A stretch of 64,000 nucleotides of DNA from a virus, in the IMG/VR virus record IMGVR_UViG_3300049740_003016, positions 62,001 to 126,000 of that record; one strand, given 5' to 3'. The notes under the pieces were generated by a model. It was not told the origin of the DNA, did no database searches, and worked only from the letters and a program-made list of their open reading frames with translations. Made by a program: the position numbers and the translations under genes. Positions 6,739 through 43,735 of the stretch are shown here, piece by piece (position 1 is the stretch's first letter; every line of letters starts with the position of its first letter).

Positions 6739-6745
6739 TAAACAC

Positions 6746-6775
6746 TTGACTTTTCCTATTATTTTGTATTAAACT
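6746..6775 (+). promoter_or_regulatory. Sigma70-like promoter for membrane protein and gp55 genes
   Basis: TTGACT (6746-6751), 18 bp spacer, TAAACT (6770-6775). The ATG at 6781 begins 6 nt after the -10, i.e. at about +1. Confidence 0.45.
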
Positions 6776-6780
6776 TAGGT

Positions 6781-16342: not shown

Positions 16343-19300
16343 ATGGTGGATTTTATGAAATATATCCAACAGACTCCGTCTGATAATAAAAAACTCACAC
16401 GTGGTTTTAGTGTTAATGAGTCAACCTTATCCATTGGGTTTGAGAATGAACCAACACAATATAACTTTGGTTTGTCTCCAAAAGATTCAATTGAATTCAG
16501 TGTATTTTCATCGGAGGGTATACGTTTGGCTTGGAAAGTTGTTGATGATGAACCAAACTTTGAAGTATTAAACCTTGATTATACAAACTTAGATGGAGAT
16601 AGAATAAGTGGTCAAGCAAGACTATTTACAAGCAACTATCCATCTATTGATGGAAGTGTAGTAGTATCGCCGAGCATTGACGCCAGGTCGGTTGGAATTG
16701 ACTCTGGTTACTACTATATGCGTTATTCTTTTTTAAATGATATAGTTGGTTCAAGTGCCAATAAAAGTAAATTGTTAATAAAGGAAATATCAAATTCACG
16801 AACAGAAATAAAAGTAATTCCAGAGTGCCTAAAAACATCTCTTCGTGCAGAGGATATATCGTTATCTTTTGATTATATAAATTTCACCACAAAAAAACTA
16901 CCGGTTTCTCATTTATATAACTTCACGGATAAACTTCTCAGAGAAGATAAAAATCTATTATCTCAGGAATTTGATACGGAAATGTCAGAAATTATATCTG
17001 ATTACGAAGACTCCATTGAGTTAACTCTTGAAATGCTTGGTACAACTACACGAAAGCAAGTCTTCATAGAAATAGACTCTGTCAGAAAAAGAGTTTTTGA
17101 GTTGTATAAGAATACATTAATTTCAGAATATAATGAGGTATACACACGAACAGATTTTTATGTTCAGTATATAAATTGCATTAACTATGAAATATCCAAA
17201 CAAAAACGATTAGCAGATTCAAGTGTTGATCCACGTATAATTGATTTATATAAGTCTGTGTTAGTCACACTATATGATTCAGATTATTTAAATAGATTGT
17301 TCGTAGATAGATTTGAACTTTACTTCAACAATTATGCTAATTTTGGCCAAGGTGAGTTATTCCCAATACTTGGAACACAACTTGCAAATGAAAATATAGG
17401 TGATGAAGACAAACACACACCACTCATTATAAAACTATCAGATGCACTTCCTGCGAATATAACGGTTGGGTCTCGATTGTATATTTCAAACAAACTATAT
17501 TCAGACGATGTAGTACAGAAAGTAACTTACTTTAAAGAAATTAAGTCAAGTCTTACAAAGTTAAGAGGACCAAATAGAAGTCAGATTATCAAGAATAACG
17601 GTACTAAAGAATATACAAAGGAAGAACTTGATACCGAGTCGGGGGTAGATGAAATAGATGAATCAACGACAAAGATTTCTACATATTTCAACAAAAATAT
17701 AAATACAGGAATTACAAGTTTTGAAGAATTTTCGGACTTTGTAAAGTTCTCTTCGGCAAAAAGACAACTTGATTTGTTTATACAAAGATTTTCTAAGATT
17801 TCAAAATTAATAAATGTTATATCTTCATATGAATATTCAATCGAGACACTTGCTAAGAAAGTAGAAGATAACTTATTACCAGAAAAAGAAGCAAGCAGTT
17901 CTATTTCAATATTACAAAAACTAGAACTTAAAGAAAAACTAAAAGAACTTGACACAGAATTGTTGTCTCTGTCTGAGTATGAGAGATATTTACTTTATAC
18001 AGATTCACCAAGAGCATATCCACGAACCGATAATGTCTATGTTAGTGGCATAACTGGAAAAAACCGACTTGCAAATGGTCGGTATGAAAAATATTCATTT
18101 TTTAATGATAAGAACTCTTTTAAGCATTGGTTAGGTGACTGGTATCTTTGGTGGGACGCAACTTCGTTTGAGTGGGTATTATCGGTTGATCCTTATTCAC
18201 GAAAAGAAACTTTCTTTTCTTTTAAAAGTGAGTCATACTTTTTTGAAACAGATGTAAGGTGGGGAAATCATCTAGGTTTTGGTGGAGACGAATATGTAAA
18301 AATATCCAAAGAAACATTAGAATACGGACCCGAAAAGGGAAAACTCGCACCTGAGTATATCCCAGATGACATATCAAAATGGTCAACTGCAAGTAGAGGA
18401 TATGCTTGGTATATAGACATGGCAACTGAGGCTGCTTACTACGACAAAAGCAATGACGATTTCTTGGGTTTAAATATACCTGAATTTTTAATAAGAGATG
18501 ACCAAAACGAAGATTTCCTAAAATTATTAAGTGCAGTTGGTACGATTTTTGATGTAATTGACAACTACATCAAGAACATGGGAAATTCAAGAGAAATACG
18601 GAACAATCCTGAAAAAGGAATACCAGATGAACTTGTTTATTATTTTTTAAATTCCTTCGGAATAAATTTCACAGGAAAAAATACAAGAGGTGATGTAGTA
18701 TCAAAACTTAAAATAAAAGACAAAGAAAGCACAGAGTATAAACGTAATCAGATATGGAGACGTATTTTAAATAATTTACCTTTAATATTAAAAACAAAAG
18801 GAACCCGTGAGTCGATTGAGGCACTTATGCGTTGCTATGATATACCAGAGCAATTATTTGTAACACGTGAATACGGTGGTGCGTCACTAGAAGACTCTTC
18901 ATCAAATTTTTCCGAGTTTTCTTTTGACACATACGATTATAGTTTATCTATTGAAAATGAAGATGAATATCTTGAAGTGCCTTGGAATCACAATGATTTA
19001 AAACCAAAATCAATTGAGTTTAAATTATTTATAAGTTCGGAGTCGCAGATCAACAAAACATCAGCCGATGACGAGACAACAGAAACCTACGCACGTGAAT
19101 TTCAAACTATAATTTCAAACGAAAATTGGAAGTTTGGAATTATGAGATTTTCTGACTACGATGAAGGTTGGTGGAGATTTTATATATCGTATCAAGTAGA
19201 CGGTGAGTCGCAGGAAACACATAAACTAATACCAGATTTAGATAAAAATCCACTTGATATAAAACACTCGGATGGATACGATGTACTAATTCAGGTATCA

Positions 19301-22300
19301 AGAGCTTTCCGTCAGTTGAAAAGAAAAACTTTGCGGATCATAATTAAAAGACACAGTGATGGTGAAATTGTATTAACAGAAACTGCTGATATTATTATTG
19401 ATGAAAAAATCTTTTTGAATTTCTCAAAGGCAAAGGATATTTACATTGGAAATTATTTAGGTAGTAGTTTCAAGGGGCAGTTTGATCGTCTGCGTATATA
19501 TAACGAAGAAATTACAGAAGACGATTTTGAGCAACATATTAAATACGGACAATCTTACAGTTTGAGAACAACGGATAAATCTGTTGAAGATACCTTGTTA
19601 CTTAAAACTAATTTTGACCAACCACATGATATTTCTCTTGAAACAAATTATAAGTTTGGTTATGGAATTATACCAAACTCTTCGTTAAAAGAATCACACC
19701 CAAAATATATAAAATGCTACAATTTTAAAAAGACACAATATCCGTTTGAATTTGTCGGTGCATATAAAAAAGAATTTGCAGGATTGCCAAACTTCGGAGC
19801 CCAAGTTTTTAATAATAAAAAGATAAGAAGAGAAGAACTAAGTTTAAATTCAAATTTAAATCCATTTAATAGAGTAACAAATAAATCCTTGGATCGGGTT
19901 GGGGTTGATACAAATAAACTTGGAGTGTTTTTTGGAAAAAGTGTAACACTTAACGAAGAAATAATAAAGTTTTTTGGTAAAATAAAACTGGGAGATTACA
20001 TAGGGAACCCAGAGGACTATAACAAACGGACATATAATGAATTAAAAAAACTAAGAAATCTATTTTTCAAACATGGGTTTGGTAAAGTTGACTGGAACAA
20101 TTATATAAACAGTATCAAAGGATATTTTGACGAGTCCTTTTTTGATAACATAGAAAAGATAGTACCTGCGAGAAGTATACTAGTAAGTGGTCTTTTGGTA
20201 GAACCACTGTTGCTTGAAAGACCAAAGGTCAAGGGAACGGACTTAAACACAAATCTTGAATCAAATGTTGATAGATTTAATATTATAGAATCAACTGAAA
20301 AAATAAAACCACTAAAGAATATAAGACTTTCTGCTAAACACACAAACAAGAATATAGTAGAATTTGCAAACGCAAAAGTTTACGGACAACGAAAAACAGA
20401 TGAGAACGCAATATGCTTAAATTCAGATTTTGTGTATAAGAAAATAAAAGGAAAAACACACAAAACCGAGTTGTTTGAGAATATTGATTATGGCAATTTA
20501 CAAAGTGTTGCGTCCAATTTTGGTCATGTGAGTATAGATGGTAGGGATTATCGTGTTGAAAAAGATGAATTTACACTGAGTCATCACACAAGTTTTACAA
20601 ACGGTCTCGTAGACTATACAATTGCAAATAAAGTAAAAATAACAATAAAAATTACTAATGATAACTCTAATCACTTTTCTTCTGCGGAGGGCGAGTTCTT
20701 CTCTGGTAAAAACCTAAATGGACAACGTCTTTTTGCAAACAATGCAGAGACCTGGTTCATTTACTTTGAACCTTATATTAATCTATGGGTTCTTGTAAAC
20801 AAAGACCCACGTACAAGTGCAAATACAAATGAAATAATTTCAGACGGTTCTGTTAAGAGAATTTACTGCACAACACAAGGTACGGAATTTCCTACAAATT
20901 TCTACATAAACTCCTATACTGATGTAGTAAGAACACTGTCAGGTTCATTTGAGTCGTGGGGTGATATGTTTACAATTTCCGGAGCAACCGGAAAATTACC
21001 ACTTAACACAAATAGGATTTATCGTGCTACATCGTTGGTAAATATATTAAACGATAAATTTATTAATTTATCGGGGGGAATACTCGGTGTTGTTGATTGT
21101 GAAATAAACGGAGTTTTTGACGGAAAGTATAATGAAATTTTAGATGACGGAACACTTGTAATACACAAAAAAGGAAGTTATATATTTAGAGGACTGAGGC
21201 AAAAGATTAAATTTGACGGAACTTTCTCAGGAACTTTAAAAAGAGGATTTGTTGGATCAACTGAAACTCAGTCAGACTTTGTAATTCGAAGTGGTTATGT
21301 AAATGGAAAGAGATACGGTGGATGTTATTTTTCTGATAAAAAATTATATGGAAATATAAACGATGTCATTGAAAATGATTTAAGGTATACTGATTTAGAT
21401 TTAAGTATTTTTGATTCAAATAAGATAAACACCACATCTCAAACATTTAAGAATATTAAATTAGTACCCGTTCCTAATAAAATAGAATACAATGTTGACG
21501 AGAGTAAATTTGGTGTAAGTAAAAAAGTAAACATAGAAAGAAACTCCACCAACCAAGTATATAATATTGGATCGTTTCGATATAGAAAAACACTTGGTAC
21601 ATATTCTAACTGCTTTTACCACAGAACCAAGGATGTTTTTGTTCCTGCTTTATTTCACGAATTCGATATAAAATTAAATACTAAGATAAAAACGAATCAA
21701 ATAAGAGAGGTAAAAGTAATTGGTTATACTGATTTGATGGCAGACATTAGAACGCAGGAAAATATATCCTACAAAAGAAAATTTAAAACTGAGGTTATTA
21801 AAAATGAAACATATACAATTAGTATGTGTTTTGACTTTATATATAAAATGGAAACTAACGATTACAAAGTTAGTCCTATTATCTATTCCCGTGGTAGAAA
21901 TCTTGAAAATAATAATTACTATCGAATAACATTTGATGAATATGGTGATACTATAAGAGTAAAAGAAAATTTCTTTGATGAGAGTTGGGATTCTCTTGAC
22001 AAAATATATGAAATTGATGATTTTCGATTTTTATTATCAAAAGAAGATATTATGGCTGAGTTTGAAAATACAAATTCTTCACTTTTTTATGTTGAGATTG
22101 ATGATAAAAACTCAATTGCATTCTTAGCAAACCACGACTCGGAAGAAACAACGTCAATTGATTTTCACTCACTTGACTTTGTAAAAAATGCGACTGAAAA
22201 AAATATAAAAGGGGAGATTGAAATATTAAATACACGTGATTTATATAACCAAACTGGTAAAATATACGGTGAACAGGAACAGGGGGTGAGTTATGATACA

Positions 22301-25300
22301 CTTGAAATAAAACACAATAGGCATCATCTCATAAGTAATAACATAAAGGTTGGTGATACAATTAGACTTGATGTTTATGGAAAAAACAAAACCAAGTATG
22401 CGATTCAGACTAACCGAGAACTTACACCTGACGAAGTGGATGACTCCGAAGCAATAATTTATACAGTAGATACCTTAGATTGTCATATCACATATGACAT
22501 CAATGAAAACTTTTTAAGGTATACGGCCGAAACACTTCCATTAAAATATCATTCTTATTTTACACAAGAAAGTCCGTCTAATTACTTTTTAATAATGCCA
22601 AAGTCTGAGTATAATGGATTTGAACTAAGTGGGTATAATGGAAAGTGGAAATCTGCCAATGGGATGTATAAACAGAGTTTTATGCTAAATGATAAATACA
22701 CATACACAAACGTACATTCAGAGTGGATTGTATTTTGGAGCAAAGTCACTCCTAATTGTGAAAAAGATGGTGTAAATGGTGCATGGGTTTTAGCAAAAGA
22801 GGAAGAGTCGGGATTCACAGACAGAATTCAAAGTGATTTGGAAACTGACAAAATAAAACTATGGATGTATGGATTTGTTCGTGGAGAATTTGCATCTGAA
22901 ATTGAATACATAACAAGTCCGACAATTAATGTAGATACATTCAGTTCAGACTTTGGTGGAGATGCTGAAGAATTTTTACTTAAACAAGAAGCATCTGTAC
23001 TATATACAAAGGACCTGTGTTCGGACGAAGATTATGTAAAAAACAAAATAAAAGATAGCAATCAGAATGTGGATACCTCATTTGTTATTATTCCTAATAA
23101 AGAAGCATTTAGATTTGCAGAAAAATACGGAAAGAATACATTAAGTGTAAAGGATCAAATACTTGCCTGGAGTTTAAATATTAAGAGTGTAGAAAGCAAG
23201 TTACCCGCACGTGGTTTATACGACAAAGTAAAGCCAATGAAAGAAGTTGATGTACAGGTTGATGTGGAATATAATCAGAACTTTGATAGAGTAGTTCCGT
23301 ACGTAAGGTTGATAGGAGCAGATGTTAGTTCAACTCAATATAGAATGGTAGAAGGTGACTACTATCTTACCACACAAGAAATAAATAATTATCCTGTTTA
23401 TAGAAATCCACATGGATTTTTGATGAAACGAGATAGATATGTTGATGAGGAAACCGGTGATGCAAATTATTTGTGGGTGATCGCACAAGACGCACAACCA
23501 CTAACCACTAAAAATGAAGATCTAACCAACAAGAACCGACTTGTTTTTATTTCATATAACGGAACTTGTGCGAGTGATGATTTTAATTTTAGAGTTGGTT
23601 ATGATATGAATCCAAATGTAGATACCACCCGTGACAGAAATGATATGCTGGCAGATGCTTTTAGGGATGCCGTATTACTTGATGATCAAGAAGTAAATGT
23701 TAGGTGGGGATATGACAGAAACGAACAAGCCTGCTCTACCTGTGAGGATATAGCAACACCAGATTTTAAAATTACAGTAAGTCCAGATAATTTATATACA
23801 TCATATGCAGGAAAAAAGAAGTTTATTACAATTTACCAAGGGGAGGTTGATGCAGAAGTTGGTATCAATGAATTAAATCCAAATATATCTGCAAAGCAAT
23901 TCGGTGGATTATATAGTCACGTCACTGGAAGTTATTGTGATTCTGAAATTTGCTATCATCAAGAAAGTGGTGGATCGGTTATGAAGAAATCACCTGCGGG
24001 TTGGATCATAGAACCAACGGTAGTTGGAAGTGGTAACAAGTTTACGACATACATATCAAGCAATCATATAGATGTAAAATCAAAGGGGTTGATATTTCAA
24101 CATCCAAAATACGGAATGTATAAGTCAGAAAGTGGGGAGTTGGCATTTATTTATTACGAAAAAAATGAATATTCAGACATCAAAATATGCATTGATTCTG
24201 ATAATGAAAATTTAAGATCAAAATTTTCTAAAACAACTTATGTGCAAAATAATAGAGTTGTGTATCAAAATGAAAATGGTTGGTTGGTATTCTATAATAT
24301 AGAAGAAGTTTCGGGTGATGAATATTGGTGCATAAATGATACTTTATCTGATAGAAATGTAAAATACAAAGCAGATATTAGATGGAAAAATGAACTTAAT
24401 TTTAAAGAAGGGGACCGTCATTATGATGAGGAGTTTGGTGTCTATTACCAAAAGACTACAAATATAGACTATAATGAAAAAAATGCAATTGTAGTAAATA
24501 TGAAGATTAATCTCGATGAAGAAAATCCAACTAACATATTGAACTTGGATAGATTTGATGTTAATACATTTAGTTATCGTTTAACATACGACTCCACATT
24601 TAGACAAGAATCAACCGCATTGGAAATTCTACCAGTGTTATCAAGGGTTGAAAATAAGTATATATCGGAACTACCTGTGTCAATAAATTATGATCCTGAA
24701 ACATTTTATCTGGAGTATCCTAATTTGGTTGATATTCATGTTTTATCTGATGGGTCGTTTGAATATAATGAAACAGGTAATACTAATTTAACACTTTCAT
24801 TAAATTCTTTTGGAACGACTAAAAACTTTGATATGAAGATTGATATTGAAAATACATTTGGTCATGTCAAAGTTGATTCGACCGATATGTTCTCTGCGGA
24901 CTTTAAACGGAACAATACTGATCAAGAAAGAGAGGACGGATATATTGACATAAATAAACTATATGAAAAGTATTATATTGACGAAGTAAACTATACACTT
25001 GAAGTTGGTGTAAAAACGAGAAGAGAACCAATCGTGGTAGAAAAGAATATAAGAAAAATAAATCAACAAAGCAAATTTGAAGAATTATTTTTGGATGATT
25101 CCGATGAAGATGAACGTGAAATTAAGATTACATTTGATGAAGACCTTAGTTATAAGGTAAATAAAAATTATGCTTTAACTGACATTACAAAATTAAAAGT
25201 AAACAATGATATTGTATCAAGAAATATTTCAAAAGATCATCTATCATATAAAAGAAGATTTAAAAGAACCACGACACAAAACAATGTTTCAACAACTATT

Positions 25301-25609
25301 TCACAAGAAGGAATACAAGATTTTACATCACCAATAACAAGAACCCGTAGAGTATTTCCAAGAACTGACTTTAATAGTGGTTCGTTTGATTCATTTTGGT
25401 TTATTGATGATATACCTGTTGCTAATCAGACCGATGAGCAAAAACCTGTAATCATTAGAAAGGGTGTGTATGAACTACCAACTGATGTTCTTGATAAACT
25501 TGAATTTTATTATTCATTTAATGATTCGGATGTAGAATTTGTTGAGGCATTTCCAACTCACACTCCGTCACCAACTAAAACAGAAACCAAAACACCAACT
25601 GATGACTAA
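16343..25609 (+). CDS. Giant baseplate/tail-fibre protein with LamG-like domain (3088 aa)
   Basis: At 3088 residues this is the largest gene here; a GGAG ribosome-binding site precedes the ATG. A helical part (~250-560) precedes a conserved segment around 800-835 (RRILNNLPLILKTKGTRES) typical of phage tail proteins that dock onto the wedge. Next come a LamG/concanavalin-like beta-sandwich (~870-1070), then long beta-rich repeats including several NG-x-Y ... W-V-L modules. The C-terminus ends in a short Pro-Thr tail (HTPSPTKTETKTPTDD) like the frameshift product upstream. Position after gp6 matches gene 7 in T4, but sequence identity with gp7 is not claimed. The likely role is a wedge-linked adsorption apparatus that binds host glycans. 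Confidence 0.7.
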   Translation: MVDFMKYIQQTPSDNKKLTRGFSVNESTLSIGFENEPTQYNFGLSPKDSIEFSVFSSEGIRLAWKVVDDEPNFEVLNLDYTNLDGDRISGQARLFTSNYPSIDGSVVVSPSIDARSVGIDSGYYYMRYSFLNDIVGSSANKSKLLIKEISNSRTEIKVIPECLKTSLRAEDISLSFDYINFTTKKLPVSHLYNFTDKLLREDKNLLSQEFDTEMSEIISDYEDSIELTLEMLGTTTRKQVFIEIDSVRKRVFELYKNTLISEYNEVYTRTDFYVQYINCINYEISKQKRLADSSVDPRIIDLYKSVLVTLYDSDYLNRLFVDRFELYFNNYANFGQGELFPILGTQLANENIGDEDKHTPLIIKLSDALPANITVGSRLYISNKLYSDDVVQKVTYFKEIKSSLTKLRGPNRSQIIKNNGTKEYTKEELDTESGVDEIDESTTKISTYFNKNINTGITSFEEFSDFVKFSSAKRQLDLFIQRFSKISKLINVISSYEYSIETLAKKVEDNLLPEKEASSSISILQKLELKEKLKELDTELLSLSEYERYLLYTDSPRAYPRTDNVYVSGITGKNRLANGRYEKYSFFNDKNSFKHWLGDWYLWWDATSFEWVLSVDPYSRKETFFSFKSESYFFETDVRWGNHLGFGGDEYVKISKETLEYGPEKGKLAPEYIPDDISKWSTASRGYAWYIDMATEAAYYDKSNDDFLGLNIPEFLIRDDQNEDFLKLLSAVGTIFDVIDNYIKNMGNSREIRNNPEKGIPDELVYYFLNSFGINFTGKNTRGDVVSKLKIKDKESTEYKRNQIWRRILNNLPLILKTKGTRESIEALMRCYDIPEQLFVTREYGGASLEDSSSNFSEFSFDTYDYSLSIENEDEYLEVPWNHNDLKPKSIEFKLFISSESQINKTSADDETTETYAREFQTIISNENWKFGIMRFSDYDEGWWRFYISYQVDGESQETHKLIPDLDKNPLDIKHSDGYDVLIQVSRAFRQLKRKTLRIIIKRHSDGEIVLTETADIIIDEKIFLNFSKAKDIYIGNYLGSSFKGQFDRLRIYNEEITEDDFEQHIKYGQSYSLRTTDKSVEDTLLLKTNFDQPHDISLETNYKFGYGIIPNSSLKESHPKYIKCYNFKKTQYPFEFVGAYKKEFAGLPNFGAQVFNNKKIRREELSLNSNLNPFNRVTNKSLDRVGVDTNKLGVFFGKSVTLNEEIIKFFGKIKLGDYIGNPEDYNKRTYNELKKLRNLFFKHGFGKVDWNNYINSIKGYFDESFFDNIEKIVPARSILVSGLLVEPLLLERPKVKGTDLNTNLESNVDRFNIIESTEKIKPLKNIRLSAKHTNKNIVEFANAKVYGQRKTDENAICLNSDFVYKKIKGKTHKTELFENIDYGNLQSVASNFGHVSIDGRDYRVEKDEFTLSHHTSFTNGLVDYTIANKVKITIKITNDNSNHFSSAEGEFFSGKNLNGQRLFANNAETWFIYFEPYINLWVLVNKDPRTSANTNEIISDGSVKRIYCTTQGTEFPTNFYINSYTDVVRTLSGSFESWGDMFTISGATGKLPLNTNRIYRATSLVNILNDKFINLSGGILGVVDCEINGVFDGKYNEILDDGTLVIHKKGSYIFRGLRQKIKFDGTFSGTLKRGFVGSTETQSDFVIRSGYVNGKRYGGCYFSDKKLYGNINDVIENDLRYTDLDLSIFDSNKINTTSQTFKNIKLVPVPNKIEYNVDESKFGVSKKVNIERNSTNQVYNIGSFRYRKTLGTYSNCFYHRTKDVFVPALFHEFDIKLNTKIKTNQIREVKVIGYTDLMADIRTQENISYKRKFKTEVIKNETYTISMCFDFIYKMETNDYKVSPIIYSRGRNLENNNYYRITFDEYGDTIRVKENFFDESWDSLDKIYEIDDFRFLLSKEDIMAEFENTNSSLFYVEIDDKNSIAFLANHDSEETTSIDFHSLDFVKNATEKNIKGEIEILNTRDLYNQTGKIYGEQEQGVSYDTLEIKHNRHHLISNNIKVGDTIRLDVYGKNKTKYAIQTNRELTPDEVDDSEAIIYTVDTLDCHITYDINENFLRYTAETLPLKYHSYFTQESPSNYFLIMPKSEYNGFELSGYNGKWKSANGMYKQSFMLNDKYTYTNVHSEWIVFWSKVTPNCEKDGVNGAWVLAKEEESGFTDRIQSDLETDKIKLWMYGFVRGEFASEIEYITSPTINVDTFSSDFGGDAEEFLLKQEASVLYTKDLCSDEDYVKNKIKDSNQNVDTSFVIIPNKEAFRFAEKYGKNTLSVKDQILAWSLNIKSVESKLPARGLYDKVKPMKEVDVQVDVEYNQNFDRVVPYVRLIGADVSSTQYRMVEGDYYLTTQEINNYPVYRNPHGFLMKRDRYVDEETGDANYLWVIAQDAQPLTTKNEDLTNKNRLVFISYNGTCASDDFNFRVGYDMNPNVDTTRDRNDMLADAFRDAVLLDDQEVNVRWGYDRNEQACSTCEDIATPDFKITVSPDNLYTSYAGKKKFITIYQGEVDAEVGINELNPNISAKQFGGLYSHVTGSYCDSEICYHQESGGSVMKKSPAGWIIEPTVVGSGNKFTTYISSNHIDVKSKGLIFQHPKYGMYKSESGELAFIYYEKNEYSDIKICIDSDNENLRSKFSKTTYVQNNRVVYQNENGWLVFYNIEEVSGDEYWCINDTLSDRNVKYKADIRWKNELNFKEGDRHYDEEFGVYYQKTTNIDYNEKNAIVVNMKINLDEENPTNILNLDRFDVNTFSYRLTYDSTFRQESTALEILPVLSRVENKYISELPVSINYDPETFYLEYPNLVDIHVLSDGSFEYNETGNTNLTLSLNSFGTTKNFDMKIDIENTFGHVKVDSTDMFSADFKRNNTDQEREDGYIDINKLYEKYYIDEVNYTLEVGVKTRREPIVVEKNIRKINQQSKFEELFLDDSDEDEREIKITFDEDLSYKVNKNYALTDITKLKVNNDIVSRNISKDHLSYKRRFKRTTTQNNVSTTISQEGIQDFTSPITRTRRVFPRTDFNSGSFDSFWFIDDIPVANQTDEQKPVIIRKGVYELPTDVLDKLEFYYSFNDSDVEFVEAFPTHTPSPTKTETKTPTDD

Positions 25610-34140: not shown

Positions 34141-35069
34141 TGGGCATCTCTGAACAAAAACTTCTCAATCTTCTGCAAAAAGTATTAGGAACTGGAAAAA
34201 TCGTCTCTAAAGACGAGGCTATGTTTATGTGTCCATTTTCACATCATAGAAAACCCAAACTTGCTATTAATTTATCTACACAAAGGTGGCAAAGTTGGAT
34301 TGATACAAATGCAAAAGGCAGATCAATCTATGGTTTATTCAAAAAGATGAATGTTGCTCCACAATATCTTACGGAATTATCTAGAATTGTAAAGATACCA
34401 AAAAACACACAACAAACCGAAGAGGAAGAGATAAAAGTTCACCTTCCATACGAATTTACATCGTTGCAGTATGACACCAAAAAAACAAGAGCATCAAAGG
34501 TTGCGTTTAATTACCTAAGACAACGAAACATATTTTCTTATGATATAGAAAGATATAATATTGGATATTGTGAAAGTGGTGATTATGCCAATAGAATCAT
34601 AGTACCATCATATGATTGTGACAATAATTTAAATTATTTTATAGCAAGAGATTTTACAGGAACTGCGTATTTACGATACAAAAATCCACCAGTCAGTAAA
34701 GATGTTGTGGTGTTTGAGAATCAAATTGATTTCTCTGAACCACTTATTTTTTGTGAGGGTGTATTTGATGCTATGGCAATTCGTAGAAATGCAATTCCAC
34801 TATTGGGGAAGAATATTCCAAGTAAACTAAAAACAAAATTAGTTGAGCATGGAGTTTCTGAAGTATGTATCGTTCTTGATAATGATGCATTCAAAAACGC
34901 ATTACAAATTTCCGAAACATTGATGAACGAAAATGTTCGTGTCAAATTGGTAAAAATGGGAAATGACGATGCGGCGGACATTGGGTTTAATAAAATAATT
35001 CATAAAATTAGAAATGCAGAACTTCTTGATTTTAGTGAATTGATGAAGCAAAAGTTATGCATGAACTAA
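34140..35069 (+). CDS. 61: DNA primase (gp61-like, TOPRIM)
   Basis: GTG 34140 overlaps the resolvase stop by 1 nt (TAGTG) and is preferred over a TTG 18 nt upstream; 309 residues. The N-terminus has a degenerate zinc-finger segment (C31-P-F-S-H35-H36 ... RWQSWID) like phage primases. The TOPRIM domain is visible as FCEGVFDAMAI (C205-E206) and VLDNDAF (D247, D249), the acidic residues that bind Mg2+. Primase makes RNA primers for lagging-strand synthesis with the gp41 helicase, which is not in this window. The second CxxC of a full zinc ribbon is not evident. The stop overlaps the gp47 start by 13 bp. Confidence 0.82.
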   Translation: MGISEQKLLNLLQKVLGTGKIVSKDEAMFMCPFSHHRKPKLAINLSTQRWQSWIDTNAKGRSIYGLFKKMNVAPQYLTELSRIVKIPKNTQQTEEEEIKVHLPYEFTSLQYDTKKTRASKVAFNYLRQRNIFSYDIERYNIGYCESGDYANRIIVPSYDCDNNLNYFIARDFTGTAYLRYKNPPVSKDVVVFENQIDFSEPLIFCEGVFDAMAIRRNAIPLLGKNIPSKLKTKLVEHGVSEVCIVLDNDAFKNALQISETLMNENVRVKLVKMGNDDAADIGFNKIIHKIRNAELLDFSELMKQKLCMN

Positions 35070-35761
35070 AAACAAATTTAAAGAATGTTGAAAAAGTATA
35101 TCATCTCGCAGACATTCATATAAGAAACGTAAAAAGACACAATGAATATTCATTGGTATTTGAAAACTTTTACAAACAAGTAAAAGAAGATAATCTTGAT
35201 AATGCGATAATTTTTATTGGTGGGGATATTGCTCATGCCAAAACAGAAATGAGTCCAGAGTTGATTCACCAAATATCTTCATTTTTAAGAGAGTGTTCTA
35301 AACTTCATCCAACGATTGTAATTGCAGGAAATCATGATTGTAATTTGAATAATCCTGATCGTCTTGACGTACTATCACCTATACTTGATATGATGGACGA
35401 TGACAATTTGTTTTATTTAAAAGATACTGGTGTATATAAATTAGGTGATGTTGCTATTGGAGTTTTTGGGATATTTGAAGAACCAGGTGAATATATCAAA
35501 GGTTCTGACATAAAAGATGATTCTATTAAAACCAAGATTGCGGTATACCACGGTGCGGTAAAAAGAAGTAGAACCGATATAGGATATGTAGTTATGGGTG
35601 GTGATATTAATCTACCTATGTTTAATGGATATGATATTGTTATGCTTGGGGATATACACAAGTATCAAGTTTTGCAGGAGTATCAAACTGAGCATAGATT
35701 TATTCCTGAGAGTAAGATAGATGAATATAAATTAGAAGGATGGTGCGTTAGTGATGACTAA
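35057..35761 (+). CDS. 47: gp47 (SbcD/Mre11-like) nuclease, N-terminal catalytic part only
   Basis: 234 residues of the calcineurin-like phosphoesterase domain, with all metal-binding motifs: DxH (D19-H21), GGDIAH (D57), GNHD (91-94), H165 (YHGAV) and GDIH (198-201). T4 gp47 is 339 residues. The usual region after GDIH, beginning with the SGS-x-IQQN-x-GE motif and the cap/gp46-binding part, is missing here and found instead at the N-terminus of the gp46 gene at 36676. The product is therefore a physically separate catalytic half. With gp46 it should resect DNA ends for recombination-dependent replication. The stop overlaps the glycosyltransferase start by 8 bp. Confidence 0.88.
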   Translation: MHELKTNLKNVEKVYHLADIHIRNVKRHNEYSLVFENFYKQVKEDNLDNAIIFIGGDIAHAKTEMSPELIHQISSFLRECSKLHPTIVIAGNHDCNLNNPDRLDVLSPILDMMDDDNLFYLKDTGVYKLGDVAIGVFGIFEEPGEYIKGSDIKDDSIKTKIAVYHGAVKRSRTDIGYVVMGGDINLPMFNGYDIVMLGDIHKYQVLQEYQTEHRFIPESKIDEYKLEGWCVSDD

Positions 35762-36686
35762 TATACTCATAAGATGTAGAAACATACAAATCGGTGATAC
35801 TTTGTTTGCAAGTAGTGTTGCAAAAAAACTGAAAGAAGAAAACCCAAACTGCGTAGTTCATTATGACATTTCTTTTTTACAACCAATTGAGTTGATGATG
35901 AACAATCCATATATCGATGGGGTGTTTTATAAAGAATCTGCGGATATTCAATATGATGTAGTTTACAATCTAATTGATACAGATTTTGTAATTGATCCAT
36001 ATATATCGGCCGTTTCTCAACTTCAAAGGTTGTGCAATATTAAAAACTTCGACGATACCTTTGAAATTTATACAAACCCTCACCTTGATTATTCTATAAA
36101 GAAAAGTATTCAAGAATTAAAAAACATAAATGAATTAGAAGATGGTGTAATTTTGGTAGGATATCAAGTAGATTGGGAACGAAAAAGTTATTTGTTTACA
36201 GAAGATGAATATGAAAAAGCAGAAGGTGCAGAAGATGGATCAGGATACGGAAGTGGCAAACGAAATATTTATGATATAATAAATCCACTAGAGGTTAACT
36301 CAGATGTTTTGTTGCTTGCACTTGGTATAGAGGAAAAAATTTCCAAGCACTATCCCGAAATAAACTCTACAAACAAATTTTCTTTTACTGCAAGTTTAAT
36401 TAAAAATTGCGACTATGTAATTGGTGCTGAAGGGTGTATTACAAATATGTCATCGGCAATTGGAACAAAAACTATTATTACAACTGATTACATTCATCAG
36501 TTGTTCGGTCCCAAAGGAATTAACTGGTTAAAGCAAGGAAGAGATTTTTCTAATTTAGAAAAAAGAACTCCGTTTTTAGGACCTCATGTGTATTTTCCAA
36601 ATAATGGTCATGTGCATCTTAGTCCATATCTTACTGATTACGAGGTAGGGGAAGAAATTTTAGAAATTGTAACGAATGGAAGATAA
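35754..36686 (+). CDS. GT9-like (heptosyltransferase-fold) glycosyltransferase inserted in gp47
   Basis: ATG 35754 is preferred over GTG 35751; 310 residues. The N-terminal half has IGDTLFASSVAKKLKEENP and NNPYIDGVFY, the pattern of family 9 (ADP-heptose:LPS heptosyltransferase-like) enzymes. The C-terminal half has GAEGCITNMSSAIGTKTIIT ... FGPKG, corresponding to the GT9 donor-binding G-x-x-S-G-x-x-H-x-A-A-x-G-T region but without its His. The gene sits exactly between the two halves of gp47, overlapping the upstream half by 8 bp and the downstream fusion gene by 11 bp. The acceptor is unknown: host glycan, virion or DNA base. Acquisition by insertion is inferred. Confidence 0.72.
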   Translation: MTNILIRCRNIQIGDTLFASSVAKKLKEENPNCVVHYDISFLQPIELMMNNPYIDGVFYKESADIQYDVVYNLIDTDFVIDPYISAVSQLQRLCNIKNFDDTFEIYTNPHLDYSIKKSIQELKNINELEDGVILVGYQVDWERKSYLFTEDEYEKAEGAEDGSGYGSGKRNIYDIINPLEVNSDVLLLALGIEEKISKHYPEINSTNKFSFTASLIKNCDYVIGAEGCITNMSSAIGTKTIITTDYIHQLFGPKGINWLKQGRDFSNLEKRTPFLGPHVYFPNNGHVHLSPYLTDYEVGEEILEIVTNGR

Positions 36687-39276
36687 AGAAACATACATAA
36701 AAGTAACAAGACATAATCCCGAAAAACCGGTTGTGGTTTATTCGGGTAGTATGATACAACAAAACCACGGGGAGTTGCCTTCTGGCCATGGTTATGTTTT
36801 ATGGGATTTGAAAAATAGAACACACCAACAATATGATGTACATAATGAATATGGTTATTATACGGTTACGGTTCGTGATGGAAAGTGTGTTAGTGATTTA
36901 TCTAAACTACCAAATAAAGCAAGATTGCGTGTCAAGGTGTACAATACAACCGCAACTGAGACAAAGGAGATTATTGCAGAAATACGAAAGCAAACTAGTA
37001 TAACGGATTTAAATGTTACACGATGTGATGCAATTTCCGAAGCAAAAAAATTTGATCGTGACAACAAATTTGATTTCGGTGACATATCTCTTGCACAGAT
37101 TCAAAATGATTTAATTGAAGATTATCTAACTCGTAATTTTGTGGTTGATGAAGAGCAAATAAAAACTGCTCTTGACATTAATAAAGAAGTAAATGAAAAG
37201 TTGGTAATTAAAGAGATACTTAAAAACTGTATTTGGAAACCAAAGAAGTTTGAGTTTGGAAATATGTTTAGTTACGGCGATGGAAATGTAATTGACTTTT
37301 CTAATATGAAAAGTGTTATGGGGTTGTTTGCTTCTAATGCAAGTGGTAAAAGTAGTGTAATGAGTGCATTGAGTTTTTGTTTATTTGATAAGTGTGACCG
37401 TGCGTTCAAGGCCTCACACGTATTGAATACACAAACGGATAATTTTTATTGTAAACTTAATTTTGAAATATCCAATATAAATTATTATATTGAAAGAACT
37501 GCATCCACAAAAAAGAATGGAGATGTTACCGTTGTTGTAGATTTTTGGAAACTAGACGAAGATGGTCAGACCATTTCATTAAACGGTGAACAAAGAGCAG
37601 GAACAAACGCACTTATTCGTGATCATGTAGGTTCTTATGATGACTTTGTATTAACTACTTTGAGTTTACAAAATAACAATGCGATTTTCATAGATAAAAG
37701 TCAGAGTGAAAGAAAAGACTTGCTTGCTCAATTTATGGGAATTGATATATTTGATCAATTGCACTCTACTGCATCTGAAGATATAAAAGAAATAAATGCA
37801 TTATTAAAAAGATTTAATCGTGAAAATTTTGATGAAACATTGGTAGAGGTAACAGAAAAACTAAGCAGTATATCAGAACAATATTCAGAGCAGGAAAGTA
37901 AAACTAATGTTGCACTACTAGAGCAAAAACGCATTAACAAAATTCTCTCAGATAAAAGTTCTAAATTTAAAAATTGTTCGTTTGATGAAGATAGTTCCGA
38001 CATAGATAATTTGGAATTTAATAAAAAGAACTTAGAAGATAGACTTGTGGTTGCAGAAGAACAAAGAGATGTAGAATCTGCACGAAAAAAAGAACTTGTA
38101 AATAAACGAGGAGACTTATCAAAAAGAATTTCTGAGTTATCTGATGTAGAAGAAAATTATGTAAAGGTTCTTAAAATAAGAGAAGAGGTTGTAATTGTTG
38201 ATAAAGACTTAGCAGTTTTGAGAACTTCGGTTAATGCAAAACTTGATAAATTAAAACATTATGATGATCACGAATATGATCCGAAATGTTCATATTGTGT
38301 AAACAACTCTAAAAACTTAATTGAAAGTGCAGAGCAAACCAAACAAGAACTTGACAAAGATAAAGCAGCCGCAGACGAACTTGTAAAACAAAAAGCAGTA
38401 TATACAGAACAATTAAGTGAATTTGAGAATGTAGAAGATGAATATGAAGAATTAAAAGATTTGAACAACACTTTCACACAAACTTCATTTGAAATCAACG
38501 AAGCAGATTCAAAAGTTCTTGCTTTATCTAGTATGATAGAGTCACTTGAAAAGGATATAGTAATTAATAACAAGAACATTGATTCATACCATGAGTGTAA
38601 AGACATAATTGAATTTAATAAAAAACTACAAGTCGAGGTAGATGCTCTTCAAGATAAGTTATTGTCTGTAAACAAAATAGCAAATGATGAAAGTGAAAAA
38701 CTTCAAACTCTTTTTGGTGAGGTAAAAATTGTTGAAAAAGAACACGAAGATATTCTTGCATCAATAGAAGAAGCAAAAAGCTACGAAAGAAAAAAACGAG
38801 GATATGAACTTTATCTTGATGCTGTAAAACGAGATGGTATATCATATGAACTTATTTCTAAAACTATTCCAAGTATTGAAAGTGAAGTAAATAATATACT
38901 TTCTCAAATCGTTGATTTCGGTATGAATCTCGAAATGGACGGAAAACATATTTACTCAAAGATTACTTACGAGGATCGTCATTGGCCATTAGAAATGTGC
39001 AGTGGCATGGAACGATTCATAAGCAGTATTGCTATGCGTGTAGCACTTATCAATGTAAGTAGTCTTCCTCGTTCTAATTTCCTTGTTATTGATGAAGGGT
39101 GGGGTTCATTAGACGGAGACAATATCAGCAGTGTATTTAATCTATTTACATATCTAAAAGGTCAGTTTGAGTTCATACTTGTTATAAGTCATTTGGATGT
39201 TATGAGAGATATGGTAGACGAAATTGTAGAAATTCAAAAAGAAGGTTCATTTAGTAAGATAAATTACGGAGCATAA
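36676..39276 (+). CDS. 46: gp47 C-terminal domain fused to gp46 (SbcC/Rad50-like ATPase)
   Basis: 866 residues; T4 gp46 is 560. Residues 1-~185 are the missing C-terminal part of gp47 (VYSGSMIQQNHGELPSGHGY, the family's SGS/QQN motif, to about residue 185). The Rad50-like ATPase begins after that, with Walker A FASNASGKSS (219-228), a long coiled coil (~340-780) interrupted by a zinc hook CSYC (C538, C541), an ABC signature-like SGMERF and Walker B FLVIDEGWGS (D806-E807). The complex is a DNA-end-processing motor. Fusion fixes a 1:1 ratio of cap domain and ATPase while leaving the nuclease half free. Confidence 0.88.
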   Translation: MEDKETYIKVTRHNPEKPVVVYSGSMIQQNHGELPSGHGYVLWDLKNRTHQQYDVHNEYGYYTVTVRDGKCVSDLSKLPNKARLRVKVYNTTATETKEIIAEIRKQTSITDLNVTRCDAISEAKKFDRDNKFDFGDISLAQIQNDLIEDYLTRNFVVDEEQIKTALDINKEVNEKLVIKEILKNCIWKPKKFEFGNMFSYGDGNVIDFSNMKSVMGLFASNASGKSSVMSALSFCLFDKCDRAFKASHVLNTQTDNFYCKLNFEISNINYYIERTASTKKNGDVTVVVDFWKLDEDGQTISLNGEQRAGTNALIRDHVGSYDDFVLTTLSLQNNNAIFIDKSQSERKDLLAQFMGIDIFDQLHSTASEDIKEINALLKRFNRENFDETLVEVTEKLSSISEQYSEQESKTNVALLEQKRINKILSDKSSKFKNCSFDEDSSDIDNLEFNKKNLEDRLVVAEEQRDVESARKKELVNKRGDLSKRISELSDVEENYVKVLKIREEVVIVDKDLAVLRTSVNAKLDKLKHYDDHEYDPKCSYCVNNSKNLIESAEQTKQELDKDKAAADELVKQKAVYTEQLSEFENVEDEYEELKDLNNTFTQTSFEINEADSKVLALSSMIESLEKDIVINNKNIDSYHECKDIIEFNKKLQVEVDALQDKLLSVNKIANDESEKLQTLFGEVKIVEKEHEDILASIEEAKSYERKKRGYELYLDAVKRDGISYELISKTIPSIESEVNNILSQIVDFGMNLEMDGKHIYSKITYEDRHWPLEMCSGMERFISSIAMRVALINVSSLPRSNFLVIDEGWGSLDGDNISSVFNLFTYLKGQFEFILVISHLDVMRDMVDEIVEIQKEGSFSKINYGA

Positions 39277-39319: not shown

Positions 39320-40363
39320 ATGGAAAATTCTGAAGAAAATCAAAAAGTCCAAGAAACCCTGATTAAAGCAGGATTGCGTAAAGGATACTTTACACTTGTA
39401 GAGGGTGTATATGACCCTGGCATTTTAAAAGCAGTATTTCTAGCAGGTGGTCCTGGTTCTGGTAAATCTGCTACTGTTGATACATTATTCAATTTTCCAC
39501 CGGATGCAAGAAACTTATCACCAAGTGGATTAAAGATTGTTAATAGTGATCCTGCATTTGAGATATTACTAAAAAAAGCAGGATACGATTTAAATCTTGC
39601 TAAAATGGACGACAAAACCTTTAGCAAAGTAACAAGCAATGATCCAAATAGTGTTCGTTCCCGTGCAAAGAAAATAATGCTTAAACAATTTGAGTTATTT
39701 AAAGATGGTCGTTTGGGTGTTATCGTTGATGGAACTGGTGATGATTATGCTAAAATATCAAAGCAAAAAAAAGAACTTGAAAAACTAGGATACGATTGTT
39801 ATATGGTGTTTGTAAACACAACATTAGATGTGGCACAACAAAGAAACGCAATGCGTAAAAGAAAACTTCCACGAAAAATAGTAAAAGATATTTGGACAGA
39901 TGTTCAAAAAAATCTTGGTAAGTTTCAAGGTTTGTTTAAAGCAAATTTTGTTATAGTAGATAATTCAGAAGATACTCGCAGTAAAACAAAACCTGGTAGA
40001 TTAGATTTAGTTCCACGACTTATGAAAGAAGTTGCAAGATTTATATCCAAACCAATTCGTAATCCACTTGGAAAAAAGTGGATTAAAATGATGATGGCAC
40101 ATGATAGGGTGAGTAAGAGTGGTGATAAAAGAAATCGTATGAACGAAGAACTGGATATGGTTTCAATGGGAGATGTAGTTCTACCTATGGATTTGGAAAG
40201 ACATTTATCTCGTTCTATATTTGTAATTAAAAAATTTAAATTAAACGAAAGACGGAATCTTGCAATTATATCAAGACTGGTTGAAAGTTTAGAGTTGGAT
40301 AGAAACCAACTTAATAAATACTTCCATCAAATTAGAACATTAAAGTTCAGAGGAGAAAAATGA
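39320..40363 (+). CDS. P-loop kinase (zeta-toxin / polynucleotide-kinase-like)
   Basis: 347 residues. Walker A GGPGSGKS at 43-50, an NSDP segment near 80, a VIVDGTGDDY strand (~135) and a lid-type basic helix RNAMRKRKLPRKIV follow the layout of AAA_33/zeta-like small-molecule or polynucleotide kinases. Members phosphorylate nucleic-acid 5' ends or nucleotide sugars. Substrate choice cannot be made from sequence. Three genes downstream lies a ligase-like protein, which favours a nucleic-acid end-repair role. The C-terminal ~120 residues (from about 225) are basic and unassigned. The stop overlaps the next start (ATGA). Confidence 0.72.
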   Translation: MENSEENQKVQETLIKAGLRKGYFTLVEGVYDPGILKAVFLAGGPGSGKSATVDTLFNFPPDARNLSPSGLKIVNSDPAFEILLKKAGYDLNLAKMDDKTFSKVTSNDPNSVRSRAKKIMLKQFELFKDGRLGVIVDGTGDDYAKISKQKKELEKLGYDCYMVFVNTTLDVAQQRNAMRKRKLPRKIVKDIWTDVQKNLGKFQGLFKANFVIVDNSEDTRSKTKPGRLDLVPRLMKEVARFISKPIRNPLGKKWIKMMMAHDRVSKSGDKRNRMNEELDMVSMGDVVLPMDLERHLSRSIFVIKKFKLNERRNLAIISRLVESLELDRNQLNKYFHQIRTLKFRGEK

Positions 40364-40715: not shown

Positions 40716-41231
40716 ATGAGCATAAAAGAATACAAACGATACAAAGATGATCCGTTTTGGATGAAGTCAAAATATGATGGAGTTTCGGGTGAACAAAGAC
40801 TACCTGTACAACGAAGACTTCGCAAGGGTGGCATTAAGTTTAAGAAAGGTGATGAAATACTTTATTATCCAAAAGGAAAAGTGATTTTAGTCGGAAAAGA
40901 AGCAGAGCAAGCATACCGTGATTTTCAGGCAGCTGCACAGGATGAAGATTTTTATATGTCGATGTACGAGGGCAAAACTATGAATGAAATTAAAATAACA
41001 AGTAAAGAATATAAACAAGCAATTGATTTTATGTCGGATATGCATTCCAGTATATTAAAAGCAAAAGACAAAGTTATAGCATTTCTTAAAAGAAAAGGAT
41101 TTGATGAAATGGCAGATGAACTTTCTCCTATGTCTAAAATTGAATTTAAGAAGTTTGTTGAAAAACGAGTGTATGAGCAAAAAATTAGAAAACAAATTCG
41201 TACAATTCTTTCTGAAATATTAAAAAAGTGA
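40716..41231 (+). CDS. Basic helical protein of unknown function
   Basis: 171 residues. The N-terminal half is basic (RLPVQRRLRKGGIKFKKGD). The C-terminal half is a charged helix ending KIRKQIRTILSEILKK, similar in pattern to the N-terminal motif on several head-region proteins here. It starts 2 nt after the preceding stop with a GAGG site, and its stop overlaps the next GTG. The function is unknown; nucleic-acid binding is possible from charge. Confidence 0.5.
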   Translation: MSIKEYKRYKDDPFWMKSKYDGVSGEQRLPVQRRLRKGGIKFKKGDEILYYPKGKVILVGKEAEQAYRDFQAAAQDEDFYMSMYEGKTMNEIKITSKEYKQAIDFMSDMHSSILKAKDKVIAFLKRKGFDEMADELSPMSKIEFKKFVEKRVYEQKIRKQIRTILSEILKK

Positions 41232-43735
41232 AAACTGAACTAAGAGAATTGCTTACTCAAAATTTAACTGAGTATGTTGTGAAAGATGTATTGCAAGAAA
41301 ATTCAATACGAAAAGTTATTGGAATATATCCTGGTAGATTTCAACCAGCAGGAGTGCATCACTATAAAACATACAAATGGTTGGATGGTAAGTTTGATAA
41401 AGCATATGTAGCAACTAGTGACAAAACGGATGCCACAAAAAGTCCATTGAATTTCAAGGAAAAGAAAATGGTATGGACAAAGCATGGAGTCCGGAATGTT
41501 ACAAAAGTAAAAAATCCATATGTATGTGAAGAAATTTTAAAGAAGTATGATCCAAATACAACGGCAGTCGTTTATATTTTCGGAGAAAAAGATGCGGGTA
41601 GATTAAAAACAACCAAAGCAGATGGTTCTCCTGCGTATTATCAATCATATGAAAAAAATAAAAATGATTTGAAACCATACGGTGAACATGGATATTTTAT
41701 TGTAGCACCACACGTAAGCATTAAGGTTTTAGGAAAAGAAGTTAGTGGTACTCGTATTCGTGATTTATTAGGAAGTCCTGAACACGACAAAATGACAAAA
41801 ATTCAAGCATTTGAAGAATTGTTTGGTTGGTATGATGAAAAAATATTCAAGTACCTTACAAAGAAATTCAGCACATTGTTTGAAAATGAAGAGTTATTTG
41901 AAAGTTTTTTGCAGAACTATCCAAACTTTACAAAATCAATTTCAACTATATTGAATGAAGTAAGCACAATAGCCGCATCGGGTATTCTGTTGGTTGATGA
42001 CGGTCCGGGTTCTTTTTTCCCAAACAAAGTTTACGAAACTGAAAGTGCGGAAAGAGTTCAGCAACTTGGGTATGATCTTTTAGATTATGTAGTGGGTAAA
42101 AACGGAGTAGGTAGAAATGCAGATTATAGAATGTGGAAAGAATACGCAGGACCCGTACCGGCAGTATCTTTTTATCCTGCAGGTGTAACAGACGAAATAA
42201 CTGCAAATAATCAAATTTCAATAGAAAAATCAAAATCAGCACACGAACAATGGGTTGAGGTAATAGATTCTGTTGCTCAAACTTCTGGATATAAATTAGT
42301 AGACTTTATAGGTTCAGACGCATCTATACGAAAAGTAGATAGGTCCGGAGAAGAAAATGTAGACGGAAATACACTGGATGTTGATGTTGATGAAAAAGAA
42401 GATAAAATAGAAAAGGGTGTTGAAGGTCAAGTAATCAAAGAAAATCAACTTCTGACGGAAGGAGGTGCAGCGGGACATATGAGCCATCCGTTTGATGATC
42501 GTGATTTAACGTTTGGTGATTTAAAGGAAATGATTCGTAGATCACTCGCCGGAGAACTAAATGTTGAAAAAGAAGTTACTGAAAAACTTGATGGACAAAA
42601 TTTAATGTTTTCTTGGAAAGATGGTGAGTTAGTGGCTGCAAGAAATCAAGGTCATTTAAAAAATGCAGGAGCAGCCGCACCCAATGTAAAAGAATTTTCA
42701 AGTATATTTGCTGATCGTCCTGAGAATATACGTGATGCATTTGTAAGTGCAGTTGAAGATTTGGAAACTGCTATATCTGGTCTTACGGATGCTCAGAAGA
42801 ATAAAGTATTTCGTGAAGGTGAACGTTTTATGAATATAGAGGTAATGACACCTGCTACACAAAATGTTATTCCTCAAAATGCAGATATGTTGGTATTCCA
42901 CGGAACACAGGCATATGATTCCGCAGGAAAACCAGTTAGTGTAGATTCCGAAGGAAATGATATAACAGGTGAACTTAAAGATTCTGCAAGAATGCTTAAA
43001 GGTATGTTGAAACAAATAAATGCAGATGTTCAAAGTCGTTATTCATTGAATGCACCGATTGTGGTGGAACTTCCTAAAAGCAAAACATTTGGAGATTCTT
43101 ATGCAAAGTATTCTGCTAAAATAGATAAACTGAAAAATAAATTTAGATTAAAAGACAACGACAAAGTAATGAAGTATCATGATTCTTGGTGGAGAGATTT
43201 ACTGAACAAACAACAAACAAAAACTAAAGAGATATTTCCATCAAACGTATACGAAGCACTTATTGGTCGTTGGGCATATAATGATAAGTCTAACAAAATT
43301 ACTACAATTAAAAAAGACTTATCTGATCACCCAAAGTTACTTGCGTGGGTCACTAAGTTTGAAAAAGAAGATATTACAAAACAATTTGAAGAAAATATGT
43401 GGCCATTTCAATTCATCTTTTTGAAATTGGGTGCGGAAGTATTAAAGAATGTAAAAGGATTTGTTGCGGCCGGTGGAAGTGATGATATTGCAAAAGCACT
43501 AGATGTTCATGTTAAAACATTAGAATCAAAAAAGATTGGTTCTGTTGAATCACCTGATAAGTTTAAGAAAGACATGGAGAAGTTAAATAAAAATCTCAAT
43601 CGTCTTAATTCTATTGGTGGAAGCAACGCAATCGCACCAACAGAAGGTGTTGTATTTCAATATAAAGGTGGAACATATAAACTTACAGGTACATTTGCTC
43701 CTATAAATCAAATTATGGGTATAATGAGATTTTAA
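41228..43735 (+). CDS. Nucleotidyltransferase fused to RNA/DNA ligase-like domain
   Basis: GTG start overlapping the previous stop; 835 residues. Residues ~28-215 match NadM/NadR-type (HIGH-superfamily) nucleotidyltransferases: GRFQP (36-40) and the IS-x-TxIR-type motif VSGTRIR (172-178). The HxGH motif is altered (AGVHH), losing the first His. Residues ~420-835 show covalent-nucleotidyltransferase (ligase) motifs: motif I EKLDG with K453, and motifs IV/V EGVVFQYKGG (E806, K813). This could be a ligase with a nucleotide-metabolism or NAD-related domain. The middle (~245-400) is unassigned. Starts MKTELRELLTQ, a variant of the recurring N-terminal motif. Confidence 0.7.
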   Translation: MKTELRELLTQNLTEYVVKDVLQENSIRKVIGIYPGRFQPAGVHHYKTYKWLDGKFDKAYVATSDKTDATKSPLNFKEKKMVWTKHGVRNVTKVKNPYVCEEILKKYDPNTTAVVYIFGEKDAGRLKTTKADGSPAYYQSYEKNKNDLKPYGEHGYFIVAPHVSIKVLGKEVSGTRIRDLLGSPEHDKMTKIQAFEELFGWYDEKIFKYLTKKFSTLFENEELFESFLQNYPNFTKSISTILNEVSTIAASGILLVDDGPGSFFPNKVYETESAERVQQLGYDLLDYVVGKNGVGRNADYRMWKEYAGPVPAVSFYPAGVTDEITANNQISIEKSKSAHEQWVEVIDSVAQTSGYKLVDFIGSDASIRKVDRSGEENVDGNTLDVDVDEKEDKIEKGVEGQVIKENQLLTEGGAAGHMSHPFDDRDLTFGDLKEMIRRSLAGELNVEKEVTEKLDGQNLMFSWKDGELVAARNQGHLKNAGAAAPNVKEFSSIFADRPENIRDAFVSAVEDLETAISGLTDAQKNKVFREGERFMNIEVMTPATQNVIPQNADMLVFHGTQAYDSAGKPVSVDSEGNDITGELKDSARMLKGMLKQINADVQSRYSLNAPIVVELPKSKTFGDSYAKYSAKIDKLKNKFRLKDNDKVMKYHDSWWRDLLNKQQTKTKEIFPSNVYEALIGRWAYNDKSNKITTIKKDLSDHPKLLAWVTKFEKEDITKQFEENMWPFQFIFLKLGAEVLKNVKGFVAAGGSDDIAKALDVHVKTLESKKIGSVESPDKFKKDMEKLNKNLNRLNSIGGSNAIAPTEGVVFQYKGGTYKLTGTFAPINQIMGIMRF

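Follow-up and report, generated by a model that had tools for sequence, protein, structure and literature searches.

How can a phage keep a DNA repair nuclease whose core has been cut in two, with an unrelated gene lying between the halves? The question is raised by a locus in the window, a stretch of 64,000 nucleotides that covers positions 62001-126000 of the 161-kb virus record IMGVR_UViG_3300049740_003016 in IMG/VR. The record carries T4-type capsid (gp23), portal (gp20) and terminase genes, which mark the virus, at the level of sequence, as a distant T4-like myovirus. On the + strand, at 33.6-39.3 kb, a RuvC-like gene, a primase-like gene, an N-terminal fragment of the Mre11-type nuclease gp47 (gp47N), a glycosyltransferase gene and a gene containing the Rad50-type gp46 (the C-fragment) follow one another, and neighbouring genes overlap by 11-19 bp. 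We consider it probable that this locus encodes a heteromeric Mre11-Rad50 in which a recurrently invaded site was split, a mini-domain cut within its hairpin serves as a clasp in trans, and the glycosyltransferase is cargo acquired later.

Division of the nuclease core

The family searches showed that gp47N matches SbcD (PHROG_100, E = 2.8e-17) and Metallophos (4.6e-9). All five phosphoesterase metal motifs lie in this fragment and were kept in 61 of the 61 split loci with a glycosyltransferase in the window's lineage (lineage A). The C-fragment matched SbcC (PHROG_77, 1.5e-44), and its Walker A motif and zinc hook agree with this identity. Residues ~4-211 of gp47N aligned to the N-terminus of single open reading frames (ORFs) of ~1,064 amino acids in relatives, and residues 10-864 of the C-fragment aligned to the same fused ORFs from residue ~206 to the C-terminus. 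A Mre11 fold with its capping domain was seen in the model of an unsplit relative (L177), and the window fragments are collinear with such fusions. With all metal motifs on the 234-residue protein, and the cap, the helix-loop-helix (HLH) and the last core strands on the 866-residue protein, the cut divides the nuclease core itself, at a point after motif V (GDIH) and before the next strand.

A preliminary description of this DNA had claimed a split gp47, a displaced SGS-x-IQQN-x-GE segment ahead of the Walker A motif of the downstream gene, a complete GT9-like gene between the halves, and a fusion of the C-terminal gp47 part to gp46. All four claims held, and the start of the 866-residue protein proved homologous to gp47, with a collinear alignment from residue 10. 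The same description let gp47 end just after GDIH. The motif does stand at residues 198-201, but 33 further residues follow, of which ~22 form a conserved extension. As a separate observation, motif V of gp47N (window 35648-35659) is GDIH where GHxH is canonical. GDIH also stands in every split relative and in 268 of the 269 fused relatives, a family-wide replacement of a metal-ligand His by Asp.

The median dN/dS (ratio of nonsynonymous to synonymous substitution rates) in lineage A was 0.087 for gp47N, 0.185 for the glycosyltransferase and 0.087 for the C-fragment, values that are approximate because dS is near saturation. All three genes look to be under purifying selection and are apparently functional. 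The removal of core strands from the catalytic polypeptide might be taken as a sign of decay, in which gp47N has lost its function and Rad50 or the glycosyltransferase alone is still needed. The low ratio of gp47N across divergent contigs, the complete retention of its metal motifs and the 0.87-0.92 identity of the C-terminal Mre11 part make this very improbable. A second intact gp47 was not found in the record, which may be incomplete, and the Metallophos search gave one metallophosphoesterase gene. Because the record has no second gp47, dN/dS is low (~0.09) and the metal ligands are kept, the simplest reading would be that the two halves assemble in trans into an active nuclease.

Fused relatives and the lineage of the window

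The uninterrupted gp47-gp46 fusion postulated in the preliminary description was found in relatives. The IMG/VR scans gave 269 loci with one ORF through both parts, equal to 160 distinct proteins, some contigs having been retrieved repeatedly. Where complete, these ORFs measure about 1,050-1,100 amino acids. The cultured Microcystis phage Mel-JY01 also has an uninterrupted fusion. Counted as distinct proteins, 160 are fused and 23 are split with the glycosyltransferase, against which stand 7 other split forms. The order N-fragment, glycosyltransferase, C-fragment was present in 34 of the 34 other lineage A contigs from IMG/VR with complete junctions (23 distinct proteins), therefore the split is not a sequencing artefact. 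Since every split form keeps the gp47-gp46 joint and most relatives are uninterrupted, fusion came first and fission second.

The same site is split in other lineages

A second lineage, of five contigs (L065/L081, L060/L082, L083, L084 and L085), is split at exactly this site and has no intervening gene. A fourth lineage, known from one contig (L227), is also split there and insert-free, and stop and start overlap in most insert-free splits. The huge phage LR756508 (L159) is split at the site and has a 305-amino-acid gene between the halves (6701-7615), as tightly placed as the glycosyltransferase. Its product is a zinc-finger protein with a PHROG HNH match (3.5e-15) and a TnsA-like nuclease match (5.8e-6). 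The tree of the common C-part showed that the label "fused" requires 6 changes, all forced by well-supported branches, and the approximately unbiased (AU) test rejected a single clade of all split rows (p = 0.00026). At least four phage lineages are cut at the same spot, and the cut does not have a single origin.

The preliminary description had proposed a gene insertion after, or together with, the fusion. The order of fusion before fission stands, whereas insertion of the glycosyltransferase as the cause of the split does not agree with the insert-free and endonuclease-bearing splits elsewhere. An insertion that split the gene in lineage A, unrelated to the insert-free splits of other phages, would suit the presence of the glycosyltransferase at the site in every lineage A member observed, and its close homologues (48-100% identity) were found nowhere away from this site. 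However, two lineages have insert-free splits with similar extensions, and distant homologues of the glycosyltransferase lie in glycan cassettes. To our knowledge, glycosyltransferase genes do not insert themselves. We regard this alternative as unlikely. Insert-free and endonuclease-bearing splits occur at the same site, and fission and glycosyltransferase acquisition are therefore separable events.

Separately, the L227 phage carries two HNH/zinc-finger endonuclease-like genes (1534-2899) just 5′ of its primase-like gene.

Terminal extensions and a candidate clasp

Both fragments bear extensions, resembling halves of one mini-domain, that were overlooked in the first reading: ~22 amino acids on gp47N and ~15 on the C-fragment. 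Most fused relatives have neither, so excision of the insert would not yield an ordinary fused sequence, contrary to the earlier claim that removing it restores a gp47-gp46 reading.

The N-fragment of every split lineage ends in a sequence of the type V-x-x-E-x-x-L/I-x-x-Y-x-(x)-x-G-W/Y-E-L. The C-fragment starts with a short basic strand (YIKVKR, YLIRKK, YRVKR, YKIIRK), followed by the conserved Y-x-GS strand. Counterparts of the N-half were found in the lineages of L065, L159 and L227 and, unsplit, in L147 and L177. In these two unsplit fusions both segments are contiguous within a ~40-amino-acid insertion at the split point, and the counterparts of the basic strand read FSVSKK and VRLRKK. 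The AlphaFold model of L177 (predicted local distance difference test, pLDDT, 89) showed a mini-domain of β216-220, α221-229, β233-237 and β245-250 in an otherwise Mre11-like fold, and the split position maps to the β2-β3 loop (238-244). The extensions are probably the halves of one β-α-β/β mini-domain (the slash marks the cut) that acts as a non-covalent clasp.

The N-half was scored with leave-one-lineage-out profiles against 20,000 background stretches. The number of stretches as good was 0 for L159 and for L065 of lineage B, 7 for L227, 17 for L177 and 25 for L085, which also belongs to lineage B. We take lineages B, C, E and D1 as likely to share a mini-domain; for lineage A this is plausible. 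Several points weigh against the explanation that we prefer. The lineage A tail is weakly recognised by the other lineages (214-1,278 of 20,000 stretches as good), and a common clasp origin is therefore less certain for the window. L083 (lineage B, 192/20,000) and L147 (183/20,000) are marginal in the same test. The clasp tails of lineage A have a pairwise identity of 0.67-0.70, against 0.82 for the core. An endonuclease-like gene stands at the split site in one genome only (L159), and the near-saturated dS loosens the selection estimates given above.

The weak matching of the lineage A tail, and the lower conservation of tails than of core, would also suit extensions that are unrelated read-through or insertion scars without function, the native interfaces of Mre11 and Rad50 being large enough to rejoin the halves by themselves. 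Against this, the β-α-β/β order, the cut position and a similar motif (E-L-x-x-Y-L/..G-W/Y-E) are common to all six lineages, the mini-domain is contiguous and folded in the L177 model, and lineages B, C, E and D1 recognise one another. Scars seem somewhat unlikely to us. A mini-domain ancestral to the whole family and lost many times, with the six scattered occurrences as survivals, would explain why six separate lineages have the same domain at the same site. Such a history demands numerous losses. A single split clade is rejected by the AU test, yet an ancestral unsplit mini-domain is compatible with that result. We judge an ancestral clasp improbable, and prefer its acquisition at a recurrently invaded site.

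Pfam gave no convincing identity for the mini-domain, tblastn in phages returned only itself or noise, and a search of the other proteins of the retrieved loci and of its own genome gave only noise.

The inserted glycosyltransferase

The AlphaFold model of the insert (pLDDT 78; predicted template modelling score, pTM, 0.79) was searched with Foldseek, which found a GT9 structure (3tov, E = 2.5e-8), WaaF (1psw), WaaC (2h1f) and also TibC. The GT-B fold is nearest to GT9/heptosyltransferases. The sequence had no match above the cut-off to Pfam Glyco_transf_9 (PF01075), and its profile found nothing in the PDB. The model thus describes a GT9-like fold rather than a sequence-level GT9 member. The conserved residues are I-G-D near the N-terminus and E-G-C-x-T-N-x-S-S-A in the C-half, which fall at the GT9 signature positions.

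Homologues with 33-41% identity in other phages sit in cassettes with glycan genes, one of which (L405) includes a PfkB kinase, a cytidylyltransferase and epimerases; none was found at gp47/gp46. These distant homologues point to a phage glycan cassette as the likely source of the gene and to glycan transfer as its likely role. A cellular source was not found in the genome contigs searched. Action as a DNA-base glucosyltransferase is not favoured, no gene of the thymidylate synthase/dCMP hydroxymethylase family being present in the record. As for its retention between the nuclease halves, genetic linkage and translational coupling are our guesses. Should the gene start at its internal ATG (35754), the overlap with gp47N would shrink from 11 to 8 bp.

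The overlapping genes lie in three different frames, which might suit a single chain still made across the glycosyltransferase gene by frameshifting, intron removal or protein splicing. Rfam gave no intron match at the locus, and no self-splicing element was found between the parts. The extensions are too short for inteins, and 0.9 kb of conserved coding sequence intervenes. A single chain is scarcely credible on these data.

Other glycan genes were observed in the record and elsewhere. A sugar-nucleotide cassette of the same record lies on the - strand at 44-52 kb (L165 4184-12213) and encodes an epimerase, a cytidylyltransferase, a mannose-6-phosphate isomerase, a UDP-sugar dehydrogenase and an Asp/Arg hydroxylase. 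A second glycosyltransferase, galactosyltransferase-like (PHROG_1721), is at window 2165-3541. In L396, L397, L400, L401 and L403 (~2440-4130), each GT9-like gene precedes a member of a single ~240-amino-acid gene family (NLFILGY..), and this repeated pairing suggests conserved multi-gene glycan modules in uncultivated phages.

Proposed course of events

The ancestor was a single-chain Mre11-Rad50 fusion, as in most relatives, and the surface loop just past motif V would be a site that repeatedly gained extra DNA. Sites right after highly conserved catalytic motifs are typical targets of homing endonucleases. Homing endonuclease targeting of such sites is described for T4-like phages (PMC2988022). 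The mobile agent was probably a homing-endonuclease-like gene, such as still lies at the site in LR756508, and the invading element could have left both the mini-domain and the break. In the lineage of the window, the loop would have acquired the ~40-amino-acid β-α-β-β mini-domain, and the gene would then have broken in the β2-β3 hairpin. Loss of the endonuclease would give the insert-free splits, restoration of the frame would give L147 and L177, and replacement or later capture would give the glycosyltransferase, which came to be carried between the halves as a cargo coupled to them in translation. The β1-α-β2 part on gp47N most likely pairs in trans with β3 on the C-fragment, which would join the halves of the nuclease core and preserve DNA-end processing. 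The order of these events is drawn from the distribution of states and not from a dated series.

Features of the locus and neighbouring genes

The features of the locus are collected in Table 1.

Table 1. Features of the split Mre11-Rad50 locus, in window coordinates.
Feature	Position	Strand	Basis or remark
N-terminal Mre11/SbcD (gp47) fragment, 234 amino acids	35057..35761	+	motifs D19-I-H21, G56-D57-x-x-H60, G91-N-H-D94, H165, G198-D-I-H201
C-terminal extension of the N-fragment, residues 213-234, HRFIPESKIDEYKLEGWCVSDD	35693..35758	+	proposed first clasp half (β1-α-β2)
GT9-type (GT-B, heptosyltransferase-like) glycosyltransferase gene, 311 amino acids	35751..36686	+	11-bp overlap with each neighbour
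C-fragment, 866 amino acids: Mre11 core end, capping domain, HLH, then Rad50/SbcC (gp46)	36676..39276	+	collinear with unsplit ~1,064-amino-acid fusions
N-terminal extension strand of the C-fragment, residues 7-13, YIKVTRH	36694..36714	+	proposed last clasp strand (β3)
SGSMIQQNHGE core strand/turn after Mre11 motif V, C-fragment residues 23-33	36742..36774	+	aligns to invariant GS-x-x-QQN-x-GE of fused relatives
Rad50 Walker A (ASNASGKSS), C-fragment residues 219-228	37330..37359	+	sequence; SbcC family match
Rad50 zinc hook CSYC	38287..38298	+	sequence

A promoter scan gave a signal no better than shuffles. A kinase of the zeta-toxin/polynucleotide kinase type lies directly 3′ of the gp46 gene (39320-40363). 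An 835-amino-acid protein (41228-43735), with no Pfam match, has an apparent N-terminal part like nicotinamide mononucleotide (NMN) adenylyltransferase (GRFQPAGVHHYKTY) and an RNA/DNA-ligase-like KxDG motif (EKLDGQN); it could be a nucleotidyltransferase-ligase fusion. One ORF of 3,088 amino acids spans 16343-25609.

Comparison with known systems and meaning of the split

The nearest precedent is the split NrdA of Aeromonas phage Aeh1 (nrdA-a/mobE/nrdA-b), which is fully active (PMC2988022). In both cases another gene interrupts a critical region of a phage enzyme gene, both parts are kept and the fragment ends are extended. The window locus shares the intact homologues, the split within the coding region and the extra terminal sequences of such genes in pieces. 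It does not share the homing endonuclease between the halves: the Aeh1 insert is an HNH homing endonuclease, whereas the window has a glycosyltransferase, and only L159 has an endonuclease-like gene there. For Mre11-Rad50, moreover, at least four lineages are split. The tail of Aeh1 NrdA-a bears a weak resemblance to the clasp, equalled by 276 of 20,000 background stretches, and is a lead only.

Fusions of the Mimivirus R555 type have the same N-to-C order, and the L177 model is nearest to giant-virus fusions (Tupanvirus, 32% identity). R555-type Mre11/Rad50 fusions are abundant in aquatic viral metagenomes (PMC3175470). They differ in being unsplit, and that paper makes no mention of a split or fission. 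T4 gp46/gp47 and E. coli SbcCD have the same domains and the Mre11 fold including the cap, but they are encoded by separate genes whose boundary follows the Mre11 HLH, whereas the boundary in the window is inside the core, and their motif V is GHxH instead of GDIH. The DNA polymerase g43A/g43B of Aeromonas phages 25 and 44RR and the T4 topoisomerase gp39/gp60 are also split replication genes, although of other enzymes. In the sections of PMC2988022 that deal with them, phage 44RR g43A/g43B is split without an endonuclease, and a shared re-joining domain is not described.

Split phage enzymes (PMC2988022) and Mre11-Rad50 fusions (PMC3175470) are thus known already. A description of an Mre11-Rad50 split was not found in the literature searched, most subscription papers lying outside that search. 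Within the reach of these tools, the novelty lies in repeated splitting at a single site, together with a joining domain that is shared and can be observed on its own, and a cargo other than an endonuclease. We tentatively put forward, as something short of probable, that the ~40-amino-acid β-α-β/β mini-domain is a natural split-protein clasp recurring at one Mre11-Rad50 site in aquatic phages. It would perhaps be carried by homing-endonuclease-type elements, and would make the core cut tolerable and the site a landing place for unrelated genes such as the glycosyltransferase.

How the parts of split enzymes find each other is a named open question (PMC2988022). Split phage enzymes have so far been isolated cases, whereas here at least four lineages have one and the same DNA repair enzyme cut at a single point. 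Unsplit relatives keep the candidate joining domain whole, and insert-free, endonuclease-bearing and cargo-bearing versions coexist. Comparison among them would allow tests of how a gene comes to tolerate fission, and they offer a candidate natural split tag. In the lineage of the window, a metabolic gene, rather than a selfish endonuclease, is stably housed between the halves of a nuclease.

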